NCBI RefSeq assembly: GCF_000373585.1
Contig: NZ_KB891883.1
Coordinates: 62,001-126,000 of the forward strand
Direction of reading: 5' to 3'
From: Streptomyces sp. MspMP-M5
GTDB taxonomy: Bacteria > Actinomycetota > Actinomycetes > Streptomycetales > Streptomycetaceae
Length of the DNA stretch: 64,000 nt
Shown: positions 21,357 through 56,538 of the stretch, one piece after another
Numbering within the stretch: the first letter of the stretch is position 1
How the letters are laid out: each line of letters opens with the position of its first letter
Program-made: the position numbers and the translations under genes
The notes under the pieces: generated by a model
Database searches by the model: none
Seen by the model: only the letters and a program-made list of their open reading frames with translations
Told to the model about the DNA's origin: nothing

Positions 21357-21452
21357 GCGCCCTCAGCGGCTCGGCGGACGGTCAAGAGTCGGCCAAACGA
21401 TTGCACATCTGCGCAAGTATTGGTCTACACTCTGAGAGGTTTGAAGAAGAGG

Positions 21453-21617
21453 CACCTCGTTCGGTGAGGCGTCTGCACGGACACAGGCCACTGACCCCAC
21501 GACGTCGAGAGACGCCCAGGGTCAGGACAGGTCTCCCCGGCCTAAGGGGTGACCCCAAGTGGCTTCCCCCACAGTGGATTACGCCGTGCAGTGCCAAAGC
21601 TCTGACGAGTTGGGGTG
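21453..21617 (+). promoter_or_regulatory. M-box (ykoK leader) Mg2+ riboswitch
   Basis: The region matches the conserved skeleton of the Bacillus mgtE M-box read by eye. The 5' part is CTCGTTCGGTGAGGC, the middle has AGAGACGCCCAGGGTCA and AAGGGGTGACC, and the 3' part is CAGTGCCAAAGCTCT followed by GACGAG, which pairs with the 5' CTCGT to close the element. M-boxes sense intracellular Mg2+ and switch off Mg2+ importers. The NRAMP-related transporter gene starts 319 bp downstream, after a small ORF and a hairpin over its ribosome site. Confidence 0.85.
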
Positions 21618-21706
21618 AACCGGCCGCAAGTCGTGCGGGCCGGTCCGCTCCTTGCCGAGTCGACGACGACGCGCGTACGCGTCCCGACCGGAAGGAGGCG
21701 AGTGAC

Positions 21707-21784
21707 ATGGACTGCAGTTGCAGTAGTCCGGGCCACAGTCGGCCCCTTACCCGCTTGTCCTCGCACTCTTCCGGCACGCGGTAA
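21707..21784 (+). CDS. 25-codon leader ORF between M-box and transporter
   Basis: ATG 21707 follows GGAAGGAGG with near-ideal spacing, the strongest ribosome site in this leader, and the ORF ends at TAA 21784. The predicted peptide is rich in Ser and has two Cys (MDCSCSSPGHSR...), with no signal or membrane segment. Its place between a riboswitch and the gene it controls suggests a regulatory leader peptide, comparable in idea to MgtL, or an ORF whose translation changes folding of the downstream RNA. It is too short for homology by eye. Confidence 0.5.
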   Translation: MDCSCSSPGHSRPLTRLSSHSSGTR

Positions 21785-21898
21785 CCACCCCCCTGCGCGC
21801 ATTCACCTCCGCGCCCTGCGCCCCGTACGGCCCTGCGCCGTGACGGGCCGCCGTCCTGCGCGCCCGCGCAGGGGGGATGGCCGCCGCGTGCCCCCAAC

Positions 21899-21927
21899 AC
21901 CTCCCCTGCTGGGGGGATTTGGGAGGT
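21899..21927 (+). promoter_or_regulatory. Hairpin that can mask the transporter ribosome site
   Basis: ACCTCCC (21899-21905) is the exact complement of GGGAGGT (21921-21927), the ribosome site 8 nt before the transporter ATG. The same C-rich strand can instead pair with the GGGG run at 21911-21916. Two exclusive pairings allow on/off control of translation. A further hairpin, CCTGCG(CGCCCG)CGCAGG, lies just upstream, around 21855-21872. Confidence 0.5.
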
Positions 21928-21935
21928 ACGTCAGC

Positions 21936-23612
21936 ATGACGGAAACGACCATCGACCACACCGCCGTCGGCCACACCGCCCTCGACGACACCGCCGTCCG
22001 CACGCCCCCCGCGGCGGTCCTGGACGACGCCCACGTCGGCGACATCCAGGGCGCCCTGGGCACCATCAGGCTCGACGACACCGCACCCCGCACCGGTTTG
22101 TCGGCCAGGCTCAAGACCCTGCTGGCCATCGTCGGTCCCGGTCTGATCGTGATGGTCGGCGACAACGATGCCGGTGCGTTCGCGACCTACGGCCAGGCCG
22201 GCCAGAACTACGGCACACACCTGCTGTGGACCCTGCTGCTGCTCATACCGGTCCTGTACGTCAACCAGGAGATGGTGCTGCGCCTGGGCGCCGTCACCGG
22301 CGTCGGGCACGCCCGGCTCATCCTGGAGCGGTTCGGGAAGTTCTGGGGCGCGTTCTCGGTCATCGACCTGTTCCTGCTCAACGCGCTGACGCTGGTGACC
22401 GAGTTCATCGGCATCACCCTGGCCACCGGCTACCTGGGCCTGCCGAGGGAAGCGTCGGTGGTACTGGCCGCCGCGATCATCGTCGCGTCCGCGTTCACCG
22501 GTTCCTTCCGGCGCTTCGAGCGGATCGCCATCGCGCTGTGCGCCGCCTCGCTGCTGCTGGTGCCGATCTACTTCATGATCCACCCCGCCGCGTCACAGAT
22601 GGCCCGGGACTTCGTCATCCCGAACATGCCCGGCGGTACGGGTGAGTTGTCGACCGTCATGCTGCTGATCATCGGCATCGTGGGCACCACCGTCGCCCCC
22701 TGGCAGCTGTTCTTCCAGCAGTCCTACGTGATCGACAAGCGGATCACCCCGCGCTTCATGAAGTACGAGAAGGTGGACCTGGTCATCGGCATCGCGGTGG
22801 TGGTCATCGGTGCCGCGGCCATGATGGGCTTCACCGCCGCCGCCTTCGCCGGGACGCACCAGGCCGGCAACTTCACCGACACCGCGGGCATCGCCCACGG
22901 CCTGGCCGCGCACGCCGGCAAGCTCGCCGGAGTCCTGTTCGCCATCGCCCTGCTGGACGCCTCGATCATCGGCGCCTTCGCCGTCTCCCTGTCCACCGCC
23001 TACGCCATCGGCGACGTCTTCGGCATCCGGCACTCCCTGCACCGCGGCGTCAAGGGCGCCAAGGGCTTCTACGCCGTCTACGCCGGCCTGGTCGCGGCCG
23101 CCGCCACGATCGTGCTGATCCCCGGCTCCCCGCTGGGCCTGCTCACCGAAGGCGTCCAGACCCTGGCCGGGGTGCTGCTGCCCTCCGCCTCCGTCTTCCT
23201 GCTCCTCCTCTGCAACGACAAGGCCGTCCTCGGCCCCTGGGTCAACGGTCCCAAGACCAACGCGTTCACCTCGGCCGTCGTGGGTGTCCTGGTCGCCCTG
23301 TCGATCGTCCTGACCGCCTCGGTCCTCTTCCCGGACATCTCCGCGGGCGCGATCCTGGACATCATGGCCGCCTGCGGCATCGTCGGAGTGCTGGCCGCCG
23401 GGTACGCCTTCACCCGCCGCCGCACGGGCACCAAGGAGGACCCGATCGACCGCACCGGCCGGGACACCTGGCGCATGCCCGCGCTCGCCACCCTGACCAG
23501 GCCGACCATGTCCACCGCGCGCAAGATCGGCATGGGCGCGCTGCGCACCTATCTCCTCATCGCGATGGTCCTGGTCGTCATCAAGATCGCTCAGGTCGCC
23601 TTCGGGAGCTGA
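21936..23612 (+). CDS. NRAMP-related divalent metal (probably Mg2+) transporter
   Basis: A 558-residue membrane protein starting at ATG 21936 after GGGAGG, with an ~60-residue cytoplasmic head and about eleven membrane helices in the NRAMP/LeuT arrangement. The helix-1 site, DPGN in classical Mn2+/Fe2+ NRAMPs, reads GDNDAGAFATYGQAG near residue 75. The helix-6 MPH site reads TVAPWQLFFQQS near residue 253, so the soft-metal-binding methionine is absent. Loss of these motifs marks the NRAMP-related Mg2+ transporter branch, which can take hydrated, harder cations. The M-box upstream independently points to Mg2+. The substrate assignment is therefore an inference from two agreeing lines. Confidence 0.88.
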   Translation: MTETTIDHTAVGHTALDDTAVRTPPAAVLDDAHVGDIQGALGTIRLDDTAPRTGLSARLKTLLAIVGPGLIVMVGDNDAGAFATYGQAGQNYGTHLLWTLLLLIPVLYVNQEMVLRLGAVTGVGHARLILERFGKFWGAFSVIDLFLLNALTLVTEFIGITLATGYLGLPREASVVLAAAIIVASAFTGSFRRFERIAIALCAASLLLVPIYFMIHPAASQMARDFVIPNMPGGTGELSTVMLLIIGIVGTTVAPWQLFFQQSYVIDKRITPRFMKYEKVDLVIGIAVVVIGAAAMMGFTAAAFAGTHQAGNFTDTAGIAHGLAAHAGKLAGVLFAIALLDASIIGAFAVSLSTAYAIGDVFGIRHSLHRGVKGAKGFYAVYAGLVAAAATIVLIPGSPLGLLTEGVQTLAGVLLPSASVFLLLLCNDKAVLGPWVNGPKTNAFTSAVVGVLVALSIVLTASVLFPDISAGAILDIMAACGIVGVLAAGYAFTRRRTGTKEDPIDRTGRDTWRMPALATLTRPTMSTARKIGMGALRTYLLIAMVLVVIKIAQVAFGS

Positions 23613-25804: not shown

Positions 25805-26008
25805 ACGCCGGCCCCGGCCCGGTTCCTACGGACGGGCTTCGGTTTCTTGGCTTGGTGCTGTCCGTCCCCTCTCCCTTTGCTGGCGGAGTGTTCACCTGCC
25901 GCTGCGTAGCGTTGTCAACACGTGAAGAGCCGAGGCGGAGCGGAGCTCGCAGCGGCTCTTGGCGCGGATGGCTCATGCCCGAGATCACCCGGCTCGAAGG
26001 GACACGTG

Positions 26009-27673
26009 ATGCGCGACCTCCAAGACCTCCGCCCGTCCCCGTCCATGGAGCACGACGACCCGCTCCTGGTAGCGGCTGATGAAGTACGAGCGTCCCGGCC
26101 CGAGTTGGCGGGGCCCTTCTTACGTTCCCTGCCCGGGGCGCAGGCCACGGTGCTGGGGCGTCTGTGGGGGGCCTTCGCCCGGGAGCCACTGCCGGGAATC
26201 ACCGGCCGGCGCCGCACCGGGGGTGATCTGACCGTCTCCCTGGAGGGCGGCGGATGCCTGTCGGGCGATGCGGCCGCCGCGGAGCGGTTCGCTCGGACGC
26301 CGCCCGGCTTCACCGTGGGAACACCCGCGGGAGCGGTGTCGGACCCGGTGCGGCTCCTCGCCGCGCTGGGCCTGCGCACGCCGGCGGCCCGCACGCTGAG
26401 TGCCGAGTTGGCCAACAGCGTGGCCAACCTTGCCTTGGCCCGGGCCGCCGCCGGGACCGGCCGGCCCGTGGTGCGCGACAGTGTGGACGCCGAGCAGGCC
26501 GTGGTCGACGGCCACCCCCAGCACCCGTGCTGCCGGACCCGCACCGGCCTGTCGGTAGCCGAGGTGCTGGCCTACGCACCCGAGTACCGGCCCGTGATCG
26601 AGATGTCCCTGCTGGCCGTGCCCGCCGGCCGGTGGCAGCAGGCCGGCACCTGGCCGGCGGAGCTGCGCGACGGCGACACGGTGCTGATGCCGCTGCATCC
26701 CTGGCAGCGCGACCATGTCCTCCCGCGGTTCGCCGGCCTGTCGCTGTCCGGGAGGTCGGTCACGGCGCGTCCGCTGATGTCCCTGCGGACCCTCGCTCCG
26801 CTGGACGCCCTGCCTGGCTGCCACGTCAAGACATCGCTGGACGTGCAGCTGACGAACTACCGACGCACCATCGCTCCGGCGGAGGTCGCCGACGGTCCCG
26901 TGCTGTCCGACCTGGTGGCGGCGGTCGTCGAGAAGTCCGGTCACGCGGACCGGCTGAGCGTGCTGCGGGAGCTGGGCGGCGGAGCCGTGCGCGTGGACGG
27001 ACAGCCGTGCTCGTCCTTGGGCTCGATGGTGCGGGAGTCGGCCGACCGGTACACGGGCCCGGACGAGATCGCGGCTCCCCTGACCGCCGTCTACGCCACC
27101 GAAGCCGCCCTGATCTCCGGTGAAGCGGTGGACTGGCTCGGCGAGTTCGCGGAGTTGGTGTTGCCGCCCGCGCTGACGCTGCTGTCCATGGGGGTCGCGC
27201 TGGAGGCGCACGGGCAGAACACGCTGGTGGTGCTGCGGCAGGGCCGCCCGGTACGCGTGCTGTACCGGGATCTGGACGGCGTGCGGGTGAGCGGCCGGCG
27301 CCTGGCCGCCTGCGGCTTCGAACTGCCGCGCCTGGCCGGGAGCCGTGCGGGAGAGGACCCGTTCGCGCTGCGGGCCAAGCTGTTCGGCGGGCTGCTGAGC
27401 GGCGTGTTCGGCGAGCTGGTGGCAGTGCTGTCCCGGGCGCGCGGAGCCGATCCCGGCGACCTGTGGGCCGTGATCGCCGGCGTCGCCCGGAGGGTCTTCG
27501 CCGCGCTGCGGGCCGAGGACGGTGACGAGGAAGCGTTCTTCGCCACCGCCTGGCCGTTGAAGGCCACCACCGCGATGCGGCTGGCCGGCACCCCCGGCAA
27601 GGCCCAGTGGGTGGAGGTGCCCAACCCGGTGGCCGCCCACCGCGGCAGTACCCGACGGGAGGTCCGGCGATGA
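26009..27673 (+). CDS. NRPS-independent siderophore synthetase (IucA/IucC family), first
   Basis: A 554-residue ATP-dependent carboxylate-amine ligase. The central IucA/IucC signatures are LMPLHPWQRDHVLPRF, VKTSLDVQLTNYRRTI and SMVRESADRYTG. The C-terminal FhuF-like part carries MGVALEAHGQNTLVVL and VLYRDLDGVRV. The enzyme couples citrate or a related carboxylate to an amine through an acyl-adenylate in siderophore assembly. Its N-terminal part is shorter and more divergent than in the second synthetase, so the two are probably different NIS types acting in sequence. ATG 26009 (AAGG upstream) is chosen; the frame is open to 25922 but adds non-family residues. It begins a four-gene overlapping operon. 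Confidence 0.9.
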   Translation: MRDLQDLRPSPSMEHDDPLLVAADEVRASRPELAGPFLRSLPGAQATVLGRLWGAFAREPLPGITGRRRTGGDLTVSLEGGGCLSGDAAAAERFARTPPGFTVGTPAGAVSDPVRLLAALGLRTPAARTLSAELANSVANLALARAAAGTGRPVVRDSVDAEQAVVDGHPQHPCCRTRTGLSVAEVLAYAPEYRPVIEMSLLAVPAGRWQQAGTWPAELRDGDTVLMPLHPWQRDHVLPRFAGLSLSGRSVTARPLMSLRTLAPLDALPGCHVKTSLDVQLTNYRRTIAPAEVADGPVLSDLVAAVVEKSGHADRLSVLRELGGGAVRVDGQPCSSLGSMVRESADRYTGPDEIAAPLTAVYATEAALISGEAVDWLGEFAELVLPPALTLLSMGVALEAHGQNTLVVLRQGRPVRVLYRDLDGVRVSGRRLAACGFELPRLAGSRAGEDPFALRAKLFGGLLSGVFGELVAVLSRARGADPGDLWAVIAGVARRVFAALRAEDGDEEAFFATAWPLKATTAMRLAGTPGKAQWVEVPNPVAAHRGSTRREVRR

Positions 27674-29367
27674 CCTCTCCGACGCTCGGCACGCCGGCCC
27701 CCGGCACCGCCGCCTCCGACGTCGACGGCGCCACCGCGGACGTGGTGACCGCACACACCCTGCTCAACTGCCTGGTTCGTGAGGTCTCCGGGCCCGAGCG
27801 CCAAGTCATCGTCGCCGACGGGCACCTGCTGGTGCGTCTGCCGCGCCGCGGAGTGCTGCTGCGGGTGGCGCTGCGTCGTCAGTCGCTGATCGGCGCCCAC
27901 CGCTTCAGCGGGCCGCCCGAGCGCTGCGAGGGCGCCGCCTGGTCCCCGCTCGGCTCGGCCGCGCTCGCGGACCTGATCCGCGCGGAACTCACCTCGTGCA
28001 CCGGCGCCGACAACGGGGAGTTCACCGCCCAGGTCGCCGCCAGCCGTGCCACCATCCGCACCGTGCTGACGGCCCGGCGCGCGCACCGGCCCTCGCCCGA
28101 CGCCTATCTCGCCTCCGAGCAGTCCCTCGTCTACGGGCACCGCTTCCACCCCACCCCCAAGTCCCGTAGCGGCGACCCGCACGAGTGGCTGGAGTACGGG
28201 CCGGAGACCGGCAGCCGGTTCGCCCTGCGCCATCTCGCCGTACGACCCGAACTGCTCTACGGAGAAGGCGACTCCAGCGCCCTGGACGCCCTGGGGCCGG
28301 CCCGGCCGGGCCACCTCGTCCTGCCCGCCCACCCGTGGCAGTACCGGATGCTGTCCGGCCACCGTGCCCTGCGTGCGGCGCTCGCCCGCGGCGACGTGCA
28401 CGATCTGGGCAGCTGCGGTCCCCTGGTGGCGCCCACGGCATCGGTGCGCACCGTGTACGAGCCGGCCGCCGACGTGTTCCTGAAGTTCAGTCTGAATGTG
28501 CGCCTGACCAACTGCGTACGAAAGAACTCCGCCTACGAGCTGGCCGGTGCCGTCGTCCTGCACGAGGTCGTCCAGCCGGTGTTCGCGGCGTTGCGCGCGC
28601 GGTACCCGGGGTGCGGCATGTTGGGCGAGCCGGGCTACCGCAGTCTCGACCTCGACGGCAGCCGCGACCTCCACGAGGGTTTCGGGGTGATCGTGCGCGA
28701 GGGCTTCGGCCGGCATCTGCCGCCCGCCGTCACGCCCCTGCTGGCCGCCGCCGTCGCCGACGAGTATCCCAACAGCCCGGCGCACGTCTCCCGGCTCCTG
28801 GCCCGCCGGGGCTCCGATCCGCTGGCTTGGTGGGACGCCTATCTCGGACTGCTGCTGCCGCCGGTCCTGGCCGCGTACTTCGAGCACGGCCTGGTCCTGG
28901 AACCGCATCTGCAGAACGTGGTCGTCGGCGTGCGCGCGGACGGCATGCCCGCACACGTCCTCTTCCGCGACCTGGAAGGCACCAAGCTCGTCCCCGAACG
29001 CCACCACCGGACGCTGGCCGCGCTGGACGAGGAGACCAGAGGACCGCTCACCTACAGCGCCGCCCGCGGCTGGGACCGCGTCGCATACTGCCTGCTGGTC
29101 AACCATGTCGCGGAAATGGTCAGCGCACTGGCCGACACCGCGCCCGCGCTGGAGGCGTCCTTGTGGGGGCTGGTCCACGACCACATCGCGGCCTACGCGG
29201 CCGACACGGGCAACCCACCCAGGCTGCGGGCGCTGCTGTCCGGGGTGCCACTGCCCGCCAAGGCCAACCTCCTGCTGCGCTGGGCCCGCCAGGCCGACCG
29301 GCACGCCACCTACGTGCCACTGCCCAGTCCGCTGTCCGACGACTTCCCCCGGCAGGTGACCCCGTGA
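27670..29367 (+). CDS. NRPS-independent siderophore synthetase (IucA/IucC family), second
   Basis: A 565-residue synthetase whose ATG overlaps the previous stop (ATGA). It shows the full NIS signature: YGHRFHPTPKSRSG in the ATP-binding region, LVLPAHPWQYRML, FLKFSLNVRLTNCVRKNS, and the C-terminal EHGLVLEPHLQNVVVG and LFRDLEGTKLV. Together with the first synthetase it should make two amide or ester bonds of a carboxylate siderophore. The pairing with a PLP decarboxylase and an MFS exporter resembles staphyloferrin-type loci, but the product here is not known. Confidence 0.92.
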   Translation: MTSPTLGTPAPGTAASDVDGATADVVTAHTLLNCLVREVSGPERQVIVADGHLLVRLPRRGVLLRVALRRQSLIGAHRFSGPPERCEGAAWSPLGSAALADLIRAELTSCTGADNGEFTAQVAASRATIRTVLTARRAHRPSPDAYLASEQSLVYGHRFHPTPKSRSGDPHEWLEYGPETGSRFALRHLAVRPELLYGEGDSSALDALGPARPGHLVLPAHPWQYRMLSGHRALRAALARGDVHDLGSCGPLVAPTASVRTVYEPAADVFLKFSLNVRLTNCVRKNSAYELAGAVVLHEVVQPVFAALRARYPGCGMLGEPGYRSLDLDGSRDLHEGFGVIVREGFGRHLPPAVTPLLAAAVADEYPNSPAHVSRLLARRGSDPLAWWDAYLGLLLPPVLAAYFEHGLVLEPHLQNVVVGVRADGMPAHVLFRDLEGTKLVPERHHRTLAALDEETRGPLTYSAARGWDRVAYCLLVNHVAEMVSALADTAPALEASLWGLVHDHIAAYAADTGNPPRLRALLSGVPLPAKANLLLRWARQADRHATYVPLPSPLSDDFPRQVTP

Positions 29368-35998: not shown

Positions 35999-37905
35999 GC
36001 CTCGACCACCCCGCTCGCTTCGTCGTACGAGGGATGTGGGGCTGGGGCAGGCGGCCAGTAGGGCTGCCGCTGAAACGCATACGTGGGCAGGTCCACCGCA
36101 CGAGCACCGGTTCCCTCGAAGAGGGTTTTCCAGTCCGCCTGAGCTCCCTCGGCGAAGGAACGGCACAGCTCCGCCAGCGCGGATCCCACCGGTGCGGGAA
36201 GGAGCCGCGAAGAGGGCCGGGCATCACCCGGGTAGATCACAACGCAGGGGTGCGGGGTGTTGTCGGCGAGGGCGCGGGTGGCGTCGAGGAGTTCGTCCCG
36301 ATCGGGAGCCAGCAGAAGGGCACGGTGGGGGAAATGACTGCGGGTGGTGGCCAGCGAGTAGGCGATGTCCAGGGCGCTGAGGTGGCGGTGGCGTTCGGCG
36401 TGTGCGGCGAGACTGCGGGCCTGTGCGCGCAGGGCGCCGGGGGTCCTGGCGGTGATGACCCAGGGTATGAGGGGCAGTGGTGCGGTGGTGGTCGCCACGT
36501 GTTCCGGTGTCGGTGACGCTTCTTCGAGGATGACGTGGGCGTTGGTGCCCCCGATGCCGATGCCTGACACGGCACAGCGGCGTGGTCGGTCCGGTTGGTG
36601 GGGCCAGTCACGCGGCTCGGTCAGAAGCCGGACGGTGCCTGAACTCCAGTCCACGTGGGGTGTGGGTTCGTCGGCGTGGAGAGTGGGCGGAAGCATGCCG
36701 TGTTGCAGAGCCAGGACCATTTTGATGATCCCGGCGGCGCCGCCGGCGGCTTGCGCATGGCCCAGGTTGGACTTGACCGACCCGAGCCACAGGGGGCGCT
36801 CCGGCGTGTGGTGCTGCCCGTAGGTGTCCAGGAGTGCCTTGACCTCCAGGGGATCCACCACCGGGGTTCCGCTGCCGTGTCCTTCCACGGCGTCGATGTC
36901 GGCGGGCCCGAGTTCCGCTCGCGAGAGCGCCTGGTGGATGAGCCTGCGACAGGCTTCTTCGCCGGGGACGACCATGGCGTTCCGGGGGCCTTCCTGCTGG
37001 ACGGCCGAGCCCCGGATCACCGCCAGCACGCGGTGCCCGTGACGGTGTGCGTCCGCCAGCCGTTCCAGCACCAACACGCCTGCGCCTTCGCCGAAGGCCA
37101 CCCCGTCGGCCCCTGCGGCGAAGGACTTGCTGCGGCCGTCCCGGGCAAGACCGGCGATGTGTCCGAGGGAACTGAACAGCATCGGTGTCGCCATGACCGT
37201 GGTGCCGCCGGCCAACGCCAGGGTGCACTCCCCGTCGCGCAGTGCCTGGCAGGCCAGATGAAGGGCCACCAGCGAGGAGGAGCACGCGGTGTCCAAGGTG
37301 ATGCCCGGTCCTTCCAGGCCGAGTGCGTAGGCGACGCGACCGGCGAGGAGGCTGCCCAGATTGCCTGTGAAGAGGTACTCGACGGCCTCCTTCTCCCGGT
37401 CGGGCAGGGACGTCAGGAGAGTGAGATAGTCGTGGTACATGGCGCCGAAGTAGACGCCCGTAGCGGTGCCCCGGAGGCTTGCCGGATCAAGTCGCGCATG
37501 TTCCAGTGCCTGCCATGCCACCTCCAGAAGAAGGCGCTGTTGAGGATCGGTGACGAGGGCTTCCGTCGCCGTCATACCGAAGAACGGAGCGTCGAAGTCA
37601 GCCGCGTTGTCGAGGAAGCAGCCGGCCTCGACCTGCAGTGGGTCGGCCTGGCCCGTGGGATCCGGCCTCCAGGTCTCCCAGTGCCGTCCGCGCGGCAGCG
37701 GGCCTGCGGCGTCCCTACCGGCCGAGACGAAGTCCCACATGGCCTCCGGTGAGTTGACGTTTCCAGGGAACCGGCAGCCCATCCCCACGATGGCGATGGG
37801 ATCGTGGTGGGAGGAGTACCGGGCGGCCTGTTCCTTGAGTCGTTGATTCTCGGTGAGAGCCGCCCGCAGCGCTTCCACGAGCCGCTCTGACGCAACGGTG
37901 GACAC
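35992..37905 (-). CDS. PKS protein with ketosynthase only; AT removed in frame
   Basis: A 637-residue type I PKS subunit. It opens with a coiled-coil N-terminal docking domain (SERLVEALRAALTENQRLKEQ). A complete ketosynthase follows: Cys in [14 protein letters not shown] near residue 207, first His in EGHGSGTPVVDP (Ser replacing the usual Thr), second His in SNLGHAQAAGG. The KS-to-AT linker is present as far as HRALLLAPDRDEL, but the whole acyltransferase (about 300 residues, GHSxGE included) is missing. The protein resumes at the post-AT linker AVDLPTYAFQRQPYW and ends 30 residues later without KR, ACP or TE. GTG 37905 follows GGAGA, 18 bp behind the first PKS gene. It can accept a chain from the PKS1 ACP but cannot extend it alone. 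Confidence 0.88.
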   Translation of the reverse strand: MSTVASERLVEALRAALTENQRLKEQAARYSSHHDPIAIVGMGCRFPGNVNSPEAMWDFVSAGRDAAGPLPRGRHWETWRPDPTGQADPLQVEAGCFLDNAADFDAPFFGMTATEALVTDPQQRLLLEVAWQALEHARLDPASLRGTATGVYFGAMYHDYLTLLTSLPDREKEAVEYLFTGNLGSLLAGRVAYALGLEGPGITLDTACSSSLVALHLACQALRDGECTLALAGGTTVMATPMLFSSLGHIAGLARDGRSKSFAAGADGVAFGEGAGVLVLERLADAHRHGHRVLAVIRGSAVQQEGPRNAMVVPGEEACRRLIHQALSRAELGPADIDAVEGHGSGTPVVDPLEVKALLDTYGQHHTPERPLWLGSVKSNLGHAQAAGGAAGIIKMVLALQHGMLPPTLHADEPTPHVDWSSGTVRLLTEPRDWPHQPDRPRRCAVSGIGIGGTNAHVILEEASPTPEHVATTTAPLPLIPWVITARTPGALRAQARSLAAHAERHRHLSALDIAYSLATTRSHFPHRALLLAPDRDELLDATRALADNTPHPCVVIYPGDARPSSRLLPAPVGSALAELCRSFAEGAQADWKTLFEGTGARAVDLPTYAFQRQPYWPPAPAPHPSYDEASGVVEAC

Positions 37906-40900: not shown

Positions 40901-43350
40901 GGATGCGCACTGCACTGGATGAAGTGCCGGAATCCGTGCCGCAGCATGGTCCGGGTGGCGGCTTCGAAGTAGACGGGTGCCCTGGTGTTGCGGTACCAGA
41001 ATCCGGCACTCATCTCCGAGCCGTCCGCCCGTCCCCCGGTCACCGTGGAGTAGAGCGGAATCCGCGCGGAGTGGGGAGTGATGCCCGCCAGGCCGTTGAG
41101 GATCTCGTCCCGGATCTGCTCCACCTGGGCCGAGTGCACGGCAACGTCGGTATCCAGGCGACGGGTTCGCACGCCGACGGCGGTGAGTTCCCGTTCCATC
41201 GCGTCCAGGGCGTCGTCGCTCCCGCACACCACCGTGCTGTGCGGGCTGTTGACCGCGCACAGCGACAGGCTGCCCCCCGCGCTCTCGATCCGCGGCTGCA
41301 GCGACGGTAGCGGCATCGCTGTCGCCAACATGCCGCCGGCACCGGCGAGTTTCGACAGAGCGTTACCGCGGATCCCCACGACCCTGGCGGCATCCTCCAA
41401 GGAGAGCACCCCTGCGATATACGCGGCCGCTATCTCCCCTTGCGAATGCCCTACCACGGCCGCCGGCTCCACCCCGTAGTGGCGCCACAGCTCGGCCAGC
41501 GAGGTCAGCACAGCGAACATGGTGTGGCTCAGTACGTCGATCCGGTCGACCGGCGGAGCCCCCGGCCGCTCGCGCACCACATCGATCAGGGAGAAGTCCG
41601 CGAAAGGAGCGAGCGCCTCGGTGCAACGCTCCATGTGGTCGGCGAACGGAACGCAGCTGTCCAACAGCTCCGCCGCCATGCCCGGCCACTGAGCGCCCTG
41701 CCCCGGGAAGATCATCACCGGCCCGGCGGAAGGCAGCGAGGTGGCGGCGGAGAAGGTGTCGGGCGTCGGGGTGTCCTCGGTGAGGGCGCGAACTGCGCTG
41801 ATGAGTTCGTCGCGCTCACGGGCCAGGAACAGTGCGCGATGGTTGAAGTGGCTGCGCGTGGTGGCCAGCGCATACCCGATGTCGAGAGCGCTGAGCTCAG
41901 GGTGCTCTTCGGCGTGTGCCGCCAGAGCGCGTGCCTGGGCACGCAGCGCCGTACGGGACTTCGCGGAGACGGCCCAAGGAATGAGGGGCAGTGGTGTGGC
42001 GGGGGCGCCTGTGGTGGACGGAAGCTCGGGTGGCGCCTCTTCCAGCACGACATGGGCGTTGGTGCCGCTGATTCCGAAGCCCGACACGGCGCAGCGGCGC
42101 GGCCGCCCAGGATGGTGGGGCCATTCCCTCGGCTCGGTCAGGAGCCGGACGGTGCCCTTGCCCCAGTCCACCCGCGAGGTGGGCGCATCCACATGCAGAG
42201 TGCGTGGCAGCAGTTCGTGTTGGAGCGCCAAGACCATCTTGATGACCCCAGCAGCACCGGCAGCCGACATCGTGTGACTGATGTTGGATTTCACCGAACC
42301 CAACCACAAGGGCCGTTCGGGCGGGCGTCGCTGTCCGTAGGTGTCCAACACCGCCTGCAGCTCATGCTGGTCCCCCAGCAGGGTGGCCGTGCCGTGCCCC
42401 TCCAGTGCGTCGATGTCGGTCGGTGCCATGGCCGCGTCCGCCAGCGCACTGCGGATCACGCCTGCCTGGGCCGACCCGCTGGGGGCGGTCAACTGAGCGC
42501 TGGCACCGTCCTGGTTGACGGCAGTGCCCCGTATGACCGCCAGAACGCGGTGCCCGTTTCGCCGGGCGTCCGGTAATCGTTCCAGGACCAGCACGCCGGC
42601 CCCCTCGCCGAAGGCCGTACCGTCGGCGGACGCCGCGAAGGACTTCACCCGGCCGTCGGCGGAGAATCCGCGTTGACGGCTGAAATCCTGCAGAACTCCG
42701 GGCGTGGCCTGCAAAGTGACGCCGCCCGCGAGTGCCAGCGTGCACTCCTGGCGCCGCAACGACTGGCAGGCCAGGTGCAGGGTCACCAGGGACGACGAGC
42801 ACGCCGTGTCCACCGTCAGTGCGGGCCCTGCCAGGTCGAGCAGGTACGACACCCGGCCCGAGGCGACCGCGTTGGTGCTGCCGACCAGCAGATGCCCCTG
42901 ATATTCCTCGAGCCCGCGGCCGCCGGTCATCCACCGCATACCGTAATCCGTATTCGTCAACCCCGCGAAGACGCCAGTCCGGCTGCCGCGCAGAGAGTGC
43001 GGATCCAGCCGGGCGTGTTCCAGTGCCTCCCAGCAGATCTCCAGCCACAGTCGTTGCTGCGGGTCCGTTGCCGCGGCTTCGCGCGGGGACAACCCGAAGA
43101 ACTCGGCATCGAATTCGGCCGCATCGTGCAGGAATCCGCTCTTCGGCAGCGAGACCTTGCCGGATGCCTCCGGATCAGGGTCATAGAGACCACGTTCCCA
43201 GCCCCGGTCCGTGGGAAAGGGCGAGAGCACGTCCCGGCCTTCGTCGAGAATTGTCCAAAAAGCCTGAGGTGAGATCGCGCCACCGGGGAATCGGCAGGCC
43301 ATACCCACGATGGCTATCGCCTCGCACCCGACGACCGAACCTCTGACCAT
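37924..43350 (-). CDS. Type I polyketide synthase, single module KS-AT-DH-KR-ACP
   Basis: A 1,808-residue PKS. Domains: KS (Cys in [13 protein letters not shown] near residue 182, EGHGTAT, SNISH); AT ([11 protein letters not shown] near 634, specificity site [10 protein letters not shown] near 735, neither the methylmalonyl YASH nor the malonyl HAFH); DH ([14 protein letters not shown] near 939 and [10 protein letters not shown] near 1112, both catalytic residues present); KR ([10 protein letters not shown] near 1398, [10 protein letters not shown] suggesting B-type, YAAAN); ACP ([11 protein letters not shown] near 1726). The C-terminus [14 protein letters not shown] resembles a docking tail matching the N-terminal coil of the next PKS. 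ATG 43350 (GGAAAGG upstream) gives no loading domain and no N-terminal docking coil, so this is probably the first subunit. No ER or thioesterase is seen. Confidence 0.92.
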
Positions 43351-55119: not shown

Positions 55120-56538
55120 TCAGGACGGGGTGTGGAAGACCTCGACGTTCTCCAGGACACCCAGCGCGTCGGGCACGAGCACGGCCGCCGAGTAGTAGGT
55201 GCTGACCAGGTAGGAGATCAGGGCCTGGTCGTTGATGCCCATGAACCGCACGTTGAGGCCCGGCTCGTACTCGTCGGGGATGCCTGTCTGGCGCAGGCCG
55301 ACCACCCCTTCGTCGTCCTCGCCCAGGCGCATCGCGAGGATGGCGGACGTGCCCTCCTCCGAGACCGGGATCTTGCCGCAGGGCAGGATCGGCACGCCCC
55401 GCCAGGCAGGTACCGGGTGTCCGGCCACCTCGGCGGTGTCGAAGGACAGGCCGCGCTTGTTGCATTCGCGGCCGAAGGCGGAGATGGCACGCGGGTGCGC
55501 GAAGAACGCCTTGGTTCCGCGCCGCATGCTCAACAGCTCGTCCATGTCGTCCGGTGTGGGCGGGCCGGAGTGGGTGGAGATGCGCTGGCTGTGGTCGGCG
55601 TTGTGCAGCAGACCGAACTCCGGGTTGTTGACCAGCTCGGACTCCTGGCGTTCGCGCAGGGCCTCGATGGTCAGCCGCAGCTGCTGCTCGACCTGGTCCA
55701 TCGGCTCGTTGTAGAGGTCGGCGACCCGGGTGTGCACCCGCAGAACCGTCTGGGCCACGCTCAACTCGTACTCGCGGGGCTCCAGTTCGTAGTCGACGAA
55801 GGTGCCCGGGATCACCGGCTCACCGGTGTGGCCGGAGGCCAGGGCGATCTCGGCCTCGCCCTTCTTGTTCTGCGGCCGTGCCTTCTCCGCCTGGCGCCGC
55901 CGGACATGCGCGCGCAACCCGTCGTTGCGGTCCGCCACTTCCTCGTACGCGGCCCGGGGCAGGGCCAGCACCGTGCACGCCGTCAGCGCACGCGCGGTGA
56001 AGTCCCACTCCCCCGGCTCCTCGGCCACTGCCTGCCCGCCGAAGAAACCGCCGTCGGACAGCACACCGCGACGGGTCTCCTCGCTGTACCTGCCGGGGCC
56101 GACCTTCTCGACCTTGCCGCGCACGATCAGATAGACGTGGTCGACGGCCGCACCGCGTTCGGCGATCAGCTGGCCGGGCCCGTATTGCTGCTGACGGCAC
56201 CGGTCGGCGAGCGCCCGCAGCGCCTTGTCGTCCTCGAACCCGCGCAGCAGCGGAAGTTCACCGAGCTCGGCCGGGACGACCCGGACCGTGCTCCCTTCCT
56301 GGACGAAGGTGACCCGGCCGTCGCCGACCTCGTACACCAGGCGCCGGTTGACCCGGTACGTGCCGCCCTTCACCTCCACCCAGGGCAGGGTGCGCAGCAG
56401 CCAGCGCGAGCTGGTGCCCTGCATCTGCGGGGCGGTCTTGGTGGTGGTCGCCAGGTTCCGCGCAGCGGCGATCCCGAGGCTGAGCTGTGCCCGGCCGGTC
56501 GGCTGCTCGGGCTGCTGCCGATACGCTGCGGTCGACAT
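55120..56538 (-). CDS. Family 2 encapsulin shell protein with cyclic-nucleotide-binding domain
   Basis: A 472-residue protein of the EshA/EshB group. Residues ~75-200 are a CRP-type cNMP-binding domain ([46 protein letters not shown]). This domain is inserted in an HK97-fold shell protein, recognised by the N-terminal [20 protein letters not shown], then [52 protein letters not shown] and the C-terminal [28 protein letters not shown]. Such proteins build family 2B encapsulin compartments that enclose 2-MIB synthase, encoded 30 bp downstream. The usual Arg of cAMP-binding pockets is not obvious, so true cAMP binding is uncertain. GTG/ATG start 56538; first gene of the three-gene operon. Confidence 0.92.

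Follow-up and report, generated by a model that had tools for sequence, protein, structure and literature searches.

Leader ORFs occur in the mRNAs of Mg2+ transporters of E. coli and Salmonella, with mgtL and corL as examples, and Rho has been implicated in their action. The locus described here is similar in that the mRNA of a putative Mg2+ transporter again carries a leader ORF but differs in that the mgtL and corL leaders have no M-box. M-box control of NRAMP-related Mg2+ transporters (NRMTs) was shown in 2014 (PMC4072509), and Mg2+ transport by the clade that includes EleNRMT was shown in 2022, with EleNRMT also carrying Mn2+ (PMC8806188). In M. tuberculosis, the M-box of pe20 (rv1806) works via an SD/anti-SD platform, uORF2 and Rho, and this ORF, uORF2/Rv1805A, was called mycobacteria-specific in the same 2026 paper (PMC12810186). 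In the 64,000-nucleotide stretch of DNA analyzed here (the window), the same order of M-box, SD/anti-SD platform and short conserved ORF is present but, in contrast to pe20, it precedes an NRMT gene in a member of the Streptomycetaceae, and a long-range stem extends to the RBS of the target gene. As the M-box/NRMT pairing and Mg2+ transport by this clade have already been published, the transporter is a new member rather than a discovery. Of greater interest at this locus is the module built around the leader ORF, a variant of a known arrangement.

All features described below are on the + strand and are given as window positions. The preliminary description had claimed an M-box in the leader, and the Rfam search that it proposed (cmscan) gave a strong match to RF00380, the M-box (ykoK leader) model, with 141.4 bits, an E-value of 6.5e-32 and coverage of model positions 1-169, relative to a gathering threshold of 44 bits. 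The aptamer (21449..21621) is full-length, as in ykoK leaders, and would be expected to respond to Mg2+. What follows it differs from the ykoK arrangement, with a SD/anti-SD stem and a leader ORF, and a search of the + strand of the leader revealed no intrinsic terminator. The source genome carries three M-boxes, along with two Nramp-family genes that are each preceded by one. The second and third M-boxes (G000:C54:67725-67898 and G000:C110:34128-34298) each have a leader ORF, followed by a second NRMT gene (76% identical) and an mgtC-like gene, respectively. M-boxes are patchily distributed; within the family 55 of 150 genomes have one, and within the class 26 of 395. Among the same-genus genomes listed, only the source genome has one and many sister-genus genomes carry one, a distribution that possibly results from transfer or loss.

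The transporter gene (21936..23612) encodes P0002, a protein of 558 aa that matches Pfam Nramp (PF01566) with an E-value of 1.4e-78 and has EleNRMT (7QIA/7QIC) as its closest relative of solved structure (E 3e-49). When aligned to EleNRMT, the helix 1 tetrad of P0002 is D78-A-G-A81 opposite D55-A-G-G58, helix 6 has T251-T-V-A254-P-W opposite T224-T-I-A227-P-W, and the counterparts of E133 and Q379 are retained. The site thus reads DAGA plus TTVAPW, with TxxA in helix 6, no Met and W in place of His, as in C. acetobutylicum NrmT (PMC4072509) and EleNRMT (PMC8806188), members of the same clade; the 2014 NrmT set is likewise under M-box control. The absence of DPGN and MPH had been predicted correctly from the sequence, but in a register that was one residue off, so that the tetrad was given as NDAG rather than DAGA. 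The DxxG of NRMT helix 1 is not present in P0002, as the D is retained but A replaces G, a difference from NrmT and EleNRMT seen also in nearly all of the close relatives sampled. DAGA is common to 82 of the rows compared, whereas DAGG occurs in six mycobacterial M-box proteins, and DPGN with MPH in the classical proteins. Judged from this alignment, A for G in helix 1 is a subfamily difference, and NRMT membership is assigned from clade placement and from the remaining residues of the site. The N- and C-terminal ends of P0002 are longer than those of NrmT and EleNRMT.

In a maximum likelihood tree of 65 proteins (IQ-TREE), P0002 joins EleNRMT (100/98) and is separated from the DPGN clade (100/99), in a topology in which the fork uniting the NRMT clade with that of the DPGN proteins is weakly supported (86/53) and for which the program warned about long branches. 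By sequence, then, P0002 is an NRMT of the EleNRMT clade, outside the DPGN/MPH clade, and neither outcome named in the preliminary description as refuting its reading, lack of an M-box match or a place inside the DPGN/MPH clade, was obtained. Together with the M-box match, this placement supports the earlier reading of Mg2+ rather than Mn2+/Fe2+, and Mg2+ is the probable cargo. The accompanying view that a 'Mn transporter' label would probably be wrong needs qualifying; such a label would not be entirely wrong but incomplete, because the characterized NRMT transports Mn2+ as well as Mg2+. P0002 lacks the DPGN and MPH of a classical MntH and scores 91.8 with the NCBIfam MntH model (cut-off 430) and 49.6 with the Nramp_1 model (cut-off 50), and an automatic label is therefore more likely to be generic Nramp than MntH. 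The six mycobacterial M-box transporters sampled carry the signature DAGG-TTVAPW, not DPGN/MPH, and therefore look like Mg2+ transporters. A mycobacterial M-box class has been labelled 'Mn2+-type' (PMC12810186), and these six NRMTs would be the same genes.

Within the 314 nt that separate the M-box from the transporter gene are several conserved RNA helices and a small ORF preceded by a strong SD. The first ORF 3′ of the M-box is this leader ORF (21707..21784; 25 codons, MDCSCSSPGHSRPLTRLSSHSSGTR, then a stop codon), with AAGGAGG as its SD, and the transporter is probably not the first ORF under M-box control. A set of 149 actinobacterial M-box leaders was collected by nhmmer from Streptomycetaceae, from Mycobacterium-like genomes, recognized by PE/PPE genes, and from others; it was drawn by closeness to the window and from Rfam hits and so is an uneven census. 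A comparable ORF is present in 134 (90%) of these leaders but in only 3% of shuffled leaders, and starts on average 113 nt past the GCCAAA core. The gene that follows may encode an NRMT or an MgtC, CorA-like, MgtE-like or PE/PPE protein, with those other than NRMT assigned by eye from sequence motifs. The N-terminal motif SPG(H/D)S is repeated across families. The comparable ORFs were picked by a rule that, where several candidates existed, preferred the one with the motif. In the mycobacterial leaders sampled, the ORF is ~110-125 nt past the GCCAAA core and has the SPGxS motif. The shared SPGxS core and position suggest that the actinobacterial leader ORFs and uORF2/Rv1805A are one family, and the presence of the ORF in these leaders argues that it is not mycobacteria-specific. 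The arrangement reported for mycobacteria in 2026 is thereby extended to Streptomycetaceae and other actinobacteria. A literature search returned no earlier report of an M-box or Mbox leader ORF for Streptomyces, within a scope that excluded most subscription papers and preprints. A protein search with the 25-aa peptide gave weak matches outside M-box loci and, of six inspected, one had a SPGH string and no M-box context. In two mycobacterial-type leaders (L202 and L208), ATT AGT CCN occupies the place of the start codon; ATT could be the start, or the ORF may have been lost.

The leader of the window folds at -177 kcal/mol (z -5.3) into a structure that contains the SD stem, hairpins H1 and H2, the long-range stem and a hairpin at the transporter RBS. 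The post-aptamer hairpin ACCGG...CCGGU (21619..21644) covaries well, with double-sided changes at 4 of its 5 pairs. It is followed by the anti-SD arm CUCCUU-CCG-GUCG (21648..21662), which in the minimum-energy fold pairs with 21685-21697 of the SD arm CGAC-CGG-AAGGAGG (21685..21698) of the leader ORF. Compared over 75 leaders, this SD stem is paired in 90% of cells, with one covarying pair. H1 (GGACU/AGUCC, 21709..21729), which overlaps the start of the leader ORF, is paired in 96% of cells, and H2 (GGGCC/GGCCC, 21730..21745) in 91%, with five double-sided changes at one pair. Further downstream, arm A1 (21773..21799), which holds the last codons and stop codon of the leader ORF, forms a long-range stem in the window fold with arm A2 (21865..21892), next to the transporter RBS hairpin. 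Over 57 NRMT leaders, the A1:A2 stem is 91.5% paired, with double-sided changes at 10 of 18 pairs, and RNAalifold recovered much of the helix unaided. There are 34 compensated cells, versus 7.6 in shuffled and 3-15 in slid controls, although the number of independent events is below 34 because many of these cells are common to related sequences. A1 and A2 pair more strongly with each other than with the arms of other leaders in 44 of the 57.

The reading frame of the leader ORF is maintained across these structures. In Streptomycetales, H1 loop lengths are congruent modulo 3 in 78/78 leaders, and distances from the start of H2 to the stop codon are congruent modulo 3 in 55/55. The C-terminal half nevertheless shows no amino-acid constraint; in frame, its pN/pS is 1.43 and third positions vary least, with the caveat that GC-rich codon bias also reduces third-position change. 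Conservation of the whole peptide, considered as an explanation for the ORF, is therefore unsupported in Streptomycetales. These values also make it improbable, in our view, that the leader ORF functions primarily by encoding a small protein of the Mg2+ response, with regulation of the transporter secondary, a possibility left open for Rv1805A in mycobacteria (PMC12810186). That possibility draws on the recurrence of SPG(H/D)S across families and on a copy of the ORF outside an M-box context in M. tuberculosis, although no Rv1805A phenotype was found (PMC12810186). Selection for the residue itself is also suggested by the Pro that follows Ser in mycobacterial and other leaders, which were partly chosen for the motif, as CCG, CCC, CCT and CCA are all used. 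The conserved residues, however, fall on helix arms, MD..SP with H1, PGHSRP with H2 and GTR-stop with A1, and the Ser codons point to constraint at the nucleotide level. AGT accounts for 244 of 313 Ser codons within the first 13 codons but for only 3 of 263 in later codons, and the Ser of [DHGSRE]S[PRCS] near the ORF start is AGT in 70/82 and 34/36 cases, against the usual codon bias. For Streptomycetales, the AGT codons can be accounted for by H1; this does not hold for every mycobacterial leader, and the Ser before Pro is AGT in nearly all of those as well.

With moderate confidence, we propose that the M-box controls the leader ORF and, through it, the NRMT transporter, with the Mg2+-closed aptamer blocking translation of the ORF and Rho then stopping transcription. 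At high Mg2+, the aptamer would close P1, and the anti-SD arm CUCCUU, left free, would mask the leader ORF SD. With the ORF untranslated, its C-rich second half would be naked, and Rho would terminate the transcript ahead of the transporter gene. When Mg2+ is low, the 3′ strand of P1 would instead pair with the anti-SD arm, the leader ORF would be translated, and ribosomes covering the rut-like stretch would allow the polymerase to reach the transporter gene. The stop codon region would afterwards pair with A2, and the resulting long stem would close off the C-rich spacer and lie next to the transporter RBS. The presence of the leader ORF whatever gene follows the M-box is consistent with this mechanism.

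Sequestration of the SD by the anti-SD stem is predicted both by folding and by conservation, and 86% of the leaders in the Streptomycetales set have a buried SD (unpaired < 0.3) when P1 is kept closed. The candidate for the alternative partner is GGGGUG (21612..21617), within the 3′ strand of P1, which could act as an anti-anti-SD by pairing with CGCUCC (21646-21651). Together with the intervening hairpin at 21619-21644, this makes a helix that is 93.9% paired over 75 leaders, with covariation only in the inner part. The P1 3′ strand is complementary to the anti-SD in 94% of cells, with very little variation in either GGGGUG or the anti-SD. When the P1 strand was freed in the mycobacterial and other set, SD opening was 0.147 versus 0.046 with a shuffled strand (p 0.001), whereas the values for the Streptomycetales set were 0.085 and 0.066 (p 0.53). 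Folding after P1 release was therefore rejected as proof of a switch, as the shuffled-strand control failed in the Streptomycetales set. As that control is unspecific and the strands are nearly invariant, a partner switch in the window is suggested only by their complementarity and by the mycobacterial precedent.

A rut-like stretch with C in excess over G (21743..21820) underlies the second half of the leader ORF and continues past its stop codon; its C/G ratio is 2.67, where the 99th percentile of 78-nt windows in the window is 2.5. More C than G is likewise present in the second half of 99% of 93 leader ORFs and 95% of 40, and in 94-99% of Streptomycetales leaders C predominates over G in the second half plus the next 40 nt. 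Given this stretch and the lack of an intrinsic terminator, termination by Rho would fit, by composition only, rut likeness being weak evidence. Against the model, the 3′ ends mapped in M. tuberculosis are a short distance past the aptamer and upstream of the conserved ORF, not inside it (PMC12810186).

The transporter RBS (GGGAGG, 21921-21926) is itself partly buried in the hairpin at 21893..21923 in the window fold, and its mean unpaired probability is 0.19 over 55 leaders. This hairpin could be taken as a sign of direct M-box control of the transporter gene, with the leader ORF incidental; the well-known B. subtilis ykoK M-box exerts such direct control, through an intrinsic terminator before its gene (PMC12810186). 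We regard direct action as very improbable here, as the hairpin is ~270 nt beyond the aptamer, the leader has no such terminator that could be found, and the leader ORF and its conserved frame are also present before unrelated target genes. The covarying long-range stem could alternatively be a translational coupler, looping out much of the ~150-nt spacer so that ribosomes pass from the leader stop codon to the transporter start. The stop codon has a fixed place in A1 and A2 ends beside the RBS hairpin, as such a coupler would need, but a terminating ribosome must melt the very arm that holds its stop codon. The stem, moreover, is clear at NRMT loci, present at some mgtC loci and weak or absent for several other targets. 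Masking A1, as by a ribosome, left the modelled transporter RBS access essentially unchanged (0.19 to 0.22, p 0.21). Coupling of this kind is rather unlikely. The same unchanged access led us to reject, as modelled, a simple translational attenuator whose transporter RBS would be freed by a ribosome positioned at the stop codon of the leader ORF.

The proposed control of the transporter through its leader ORF may be part of something more general. Tentatively, the actinobacterial M-boxes could constitute an ancient two-step module, placed before many Mg2+ genes, in which the riboswitch gates the leader ORF and translation, rather than the peptide, decides the outcome by covering the rut site and setting the stop-to-RBS stem. 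This would provide a testable answer to what the mycobacterial ORF does, as the conserved residues in Streptomycetales track RNA helices and ribosome occupancy may be the action.

Elsewhere in the window, two adjacent long ORFs (25922-29367) resemble, by eye, siderophore synthetase (IucA/IucC) genes and are putatively so designated. Rfam also reports matches to ASpks at 36772-36846 and 42289-42363 and to Sernc350 at 55991-56497, which may be conserved coding sequence.
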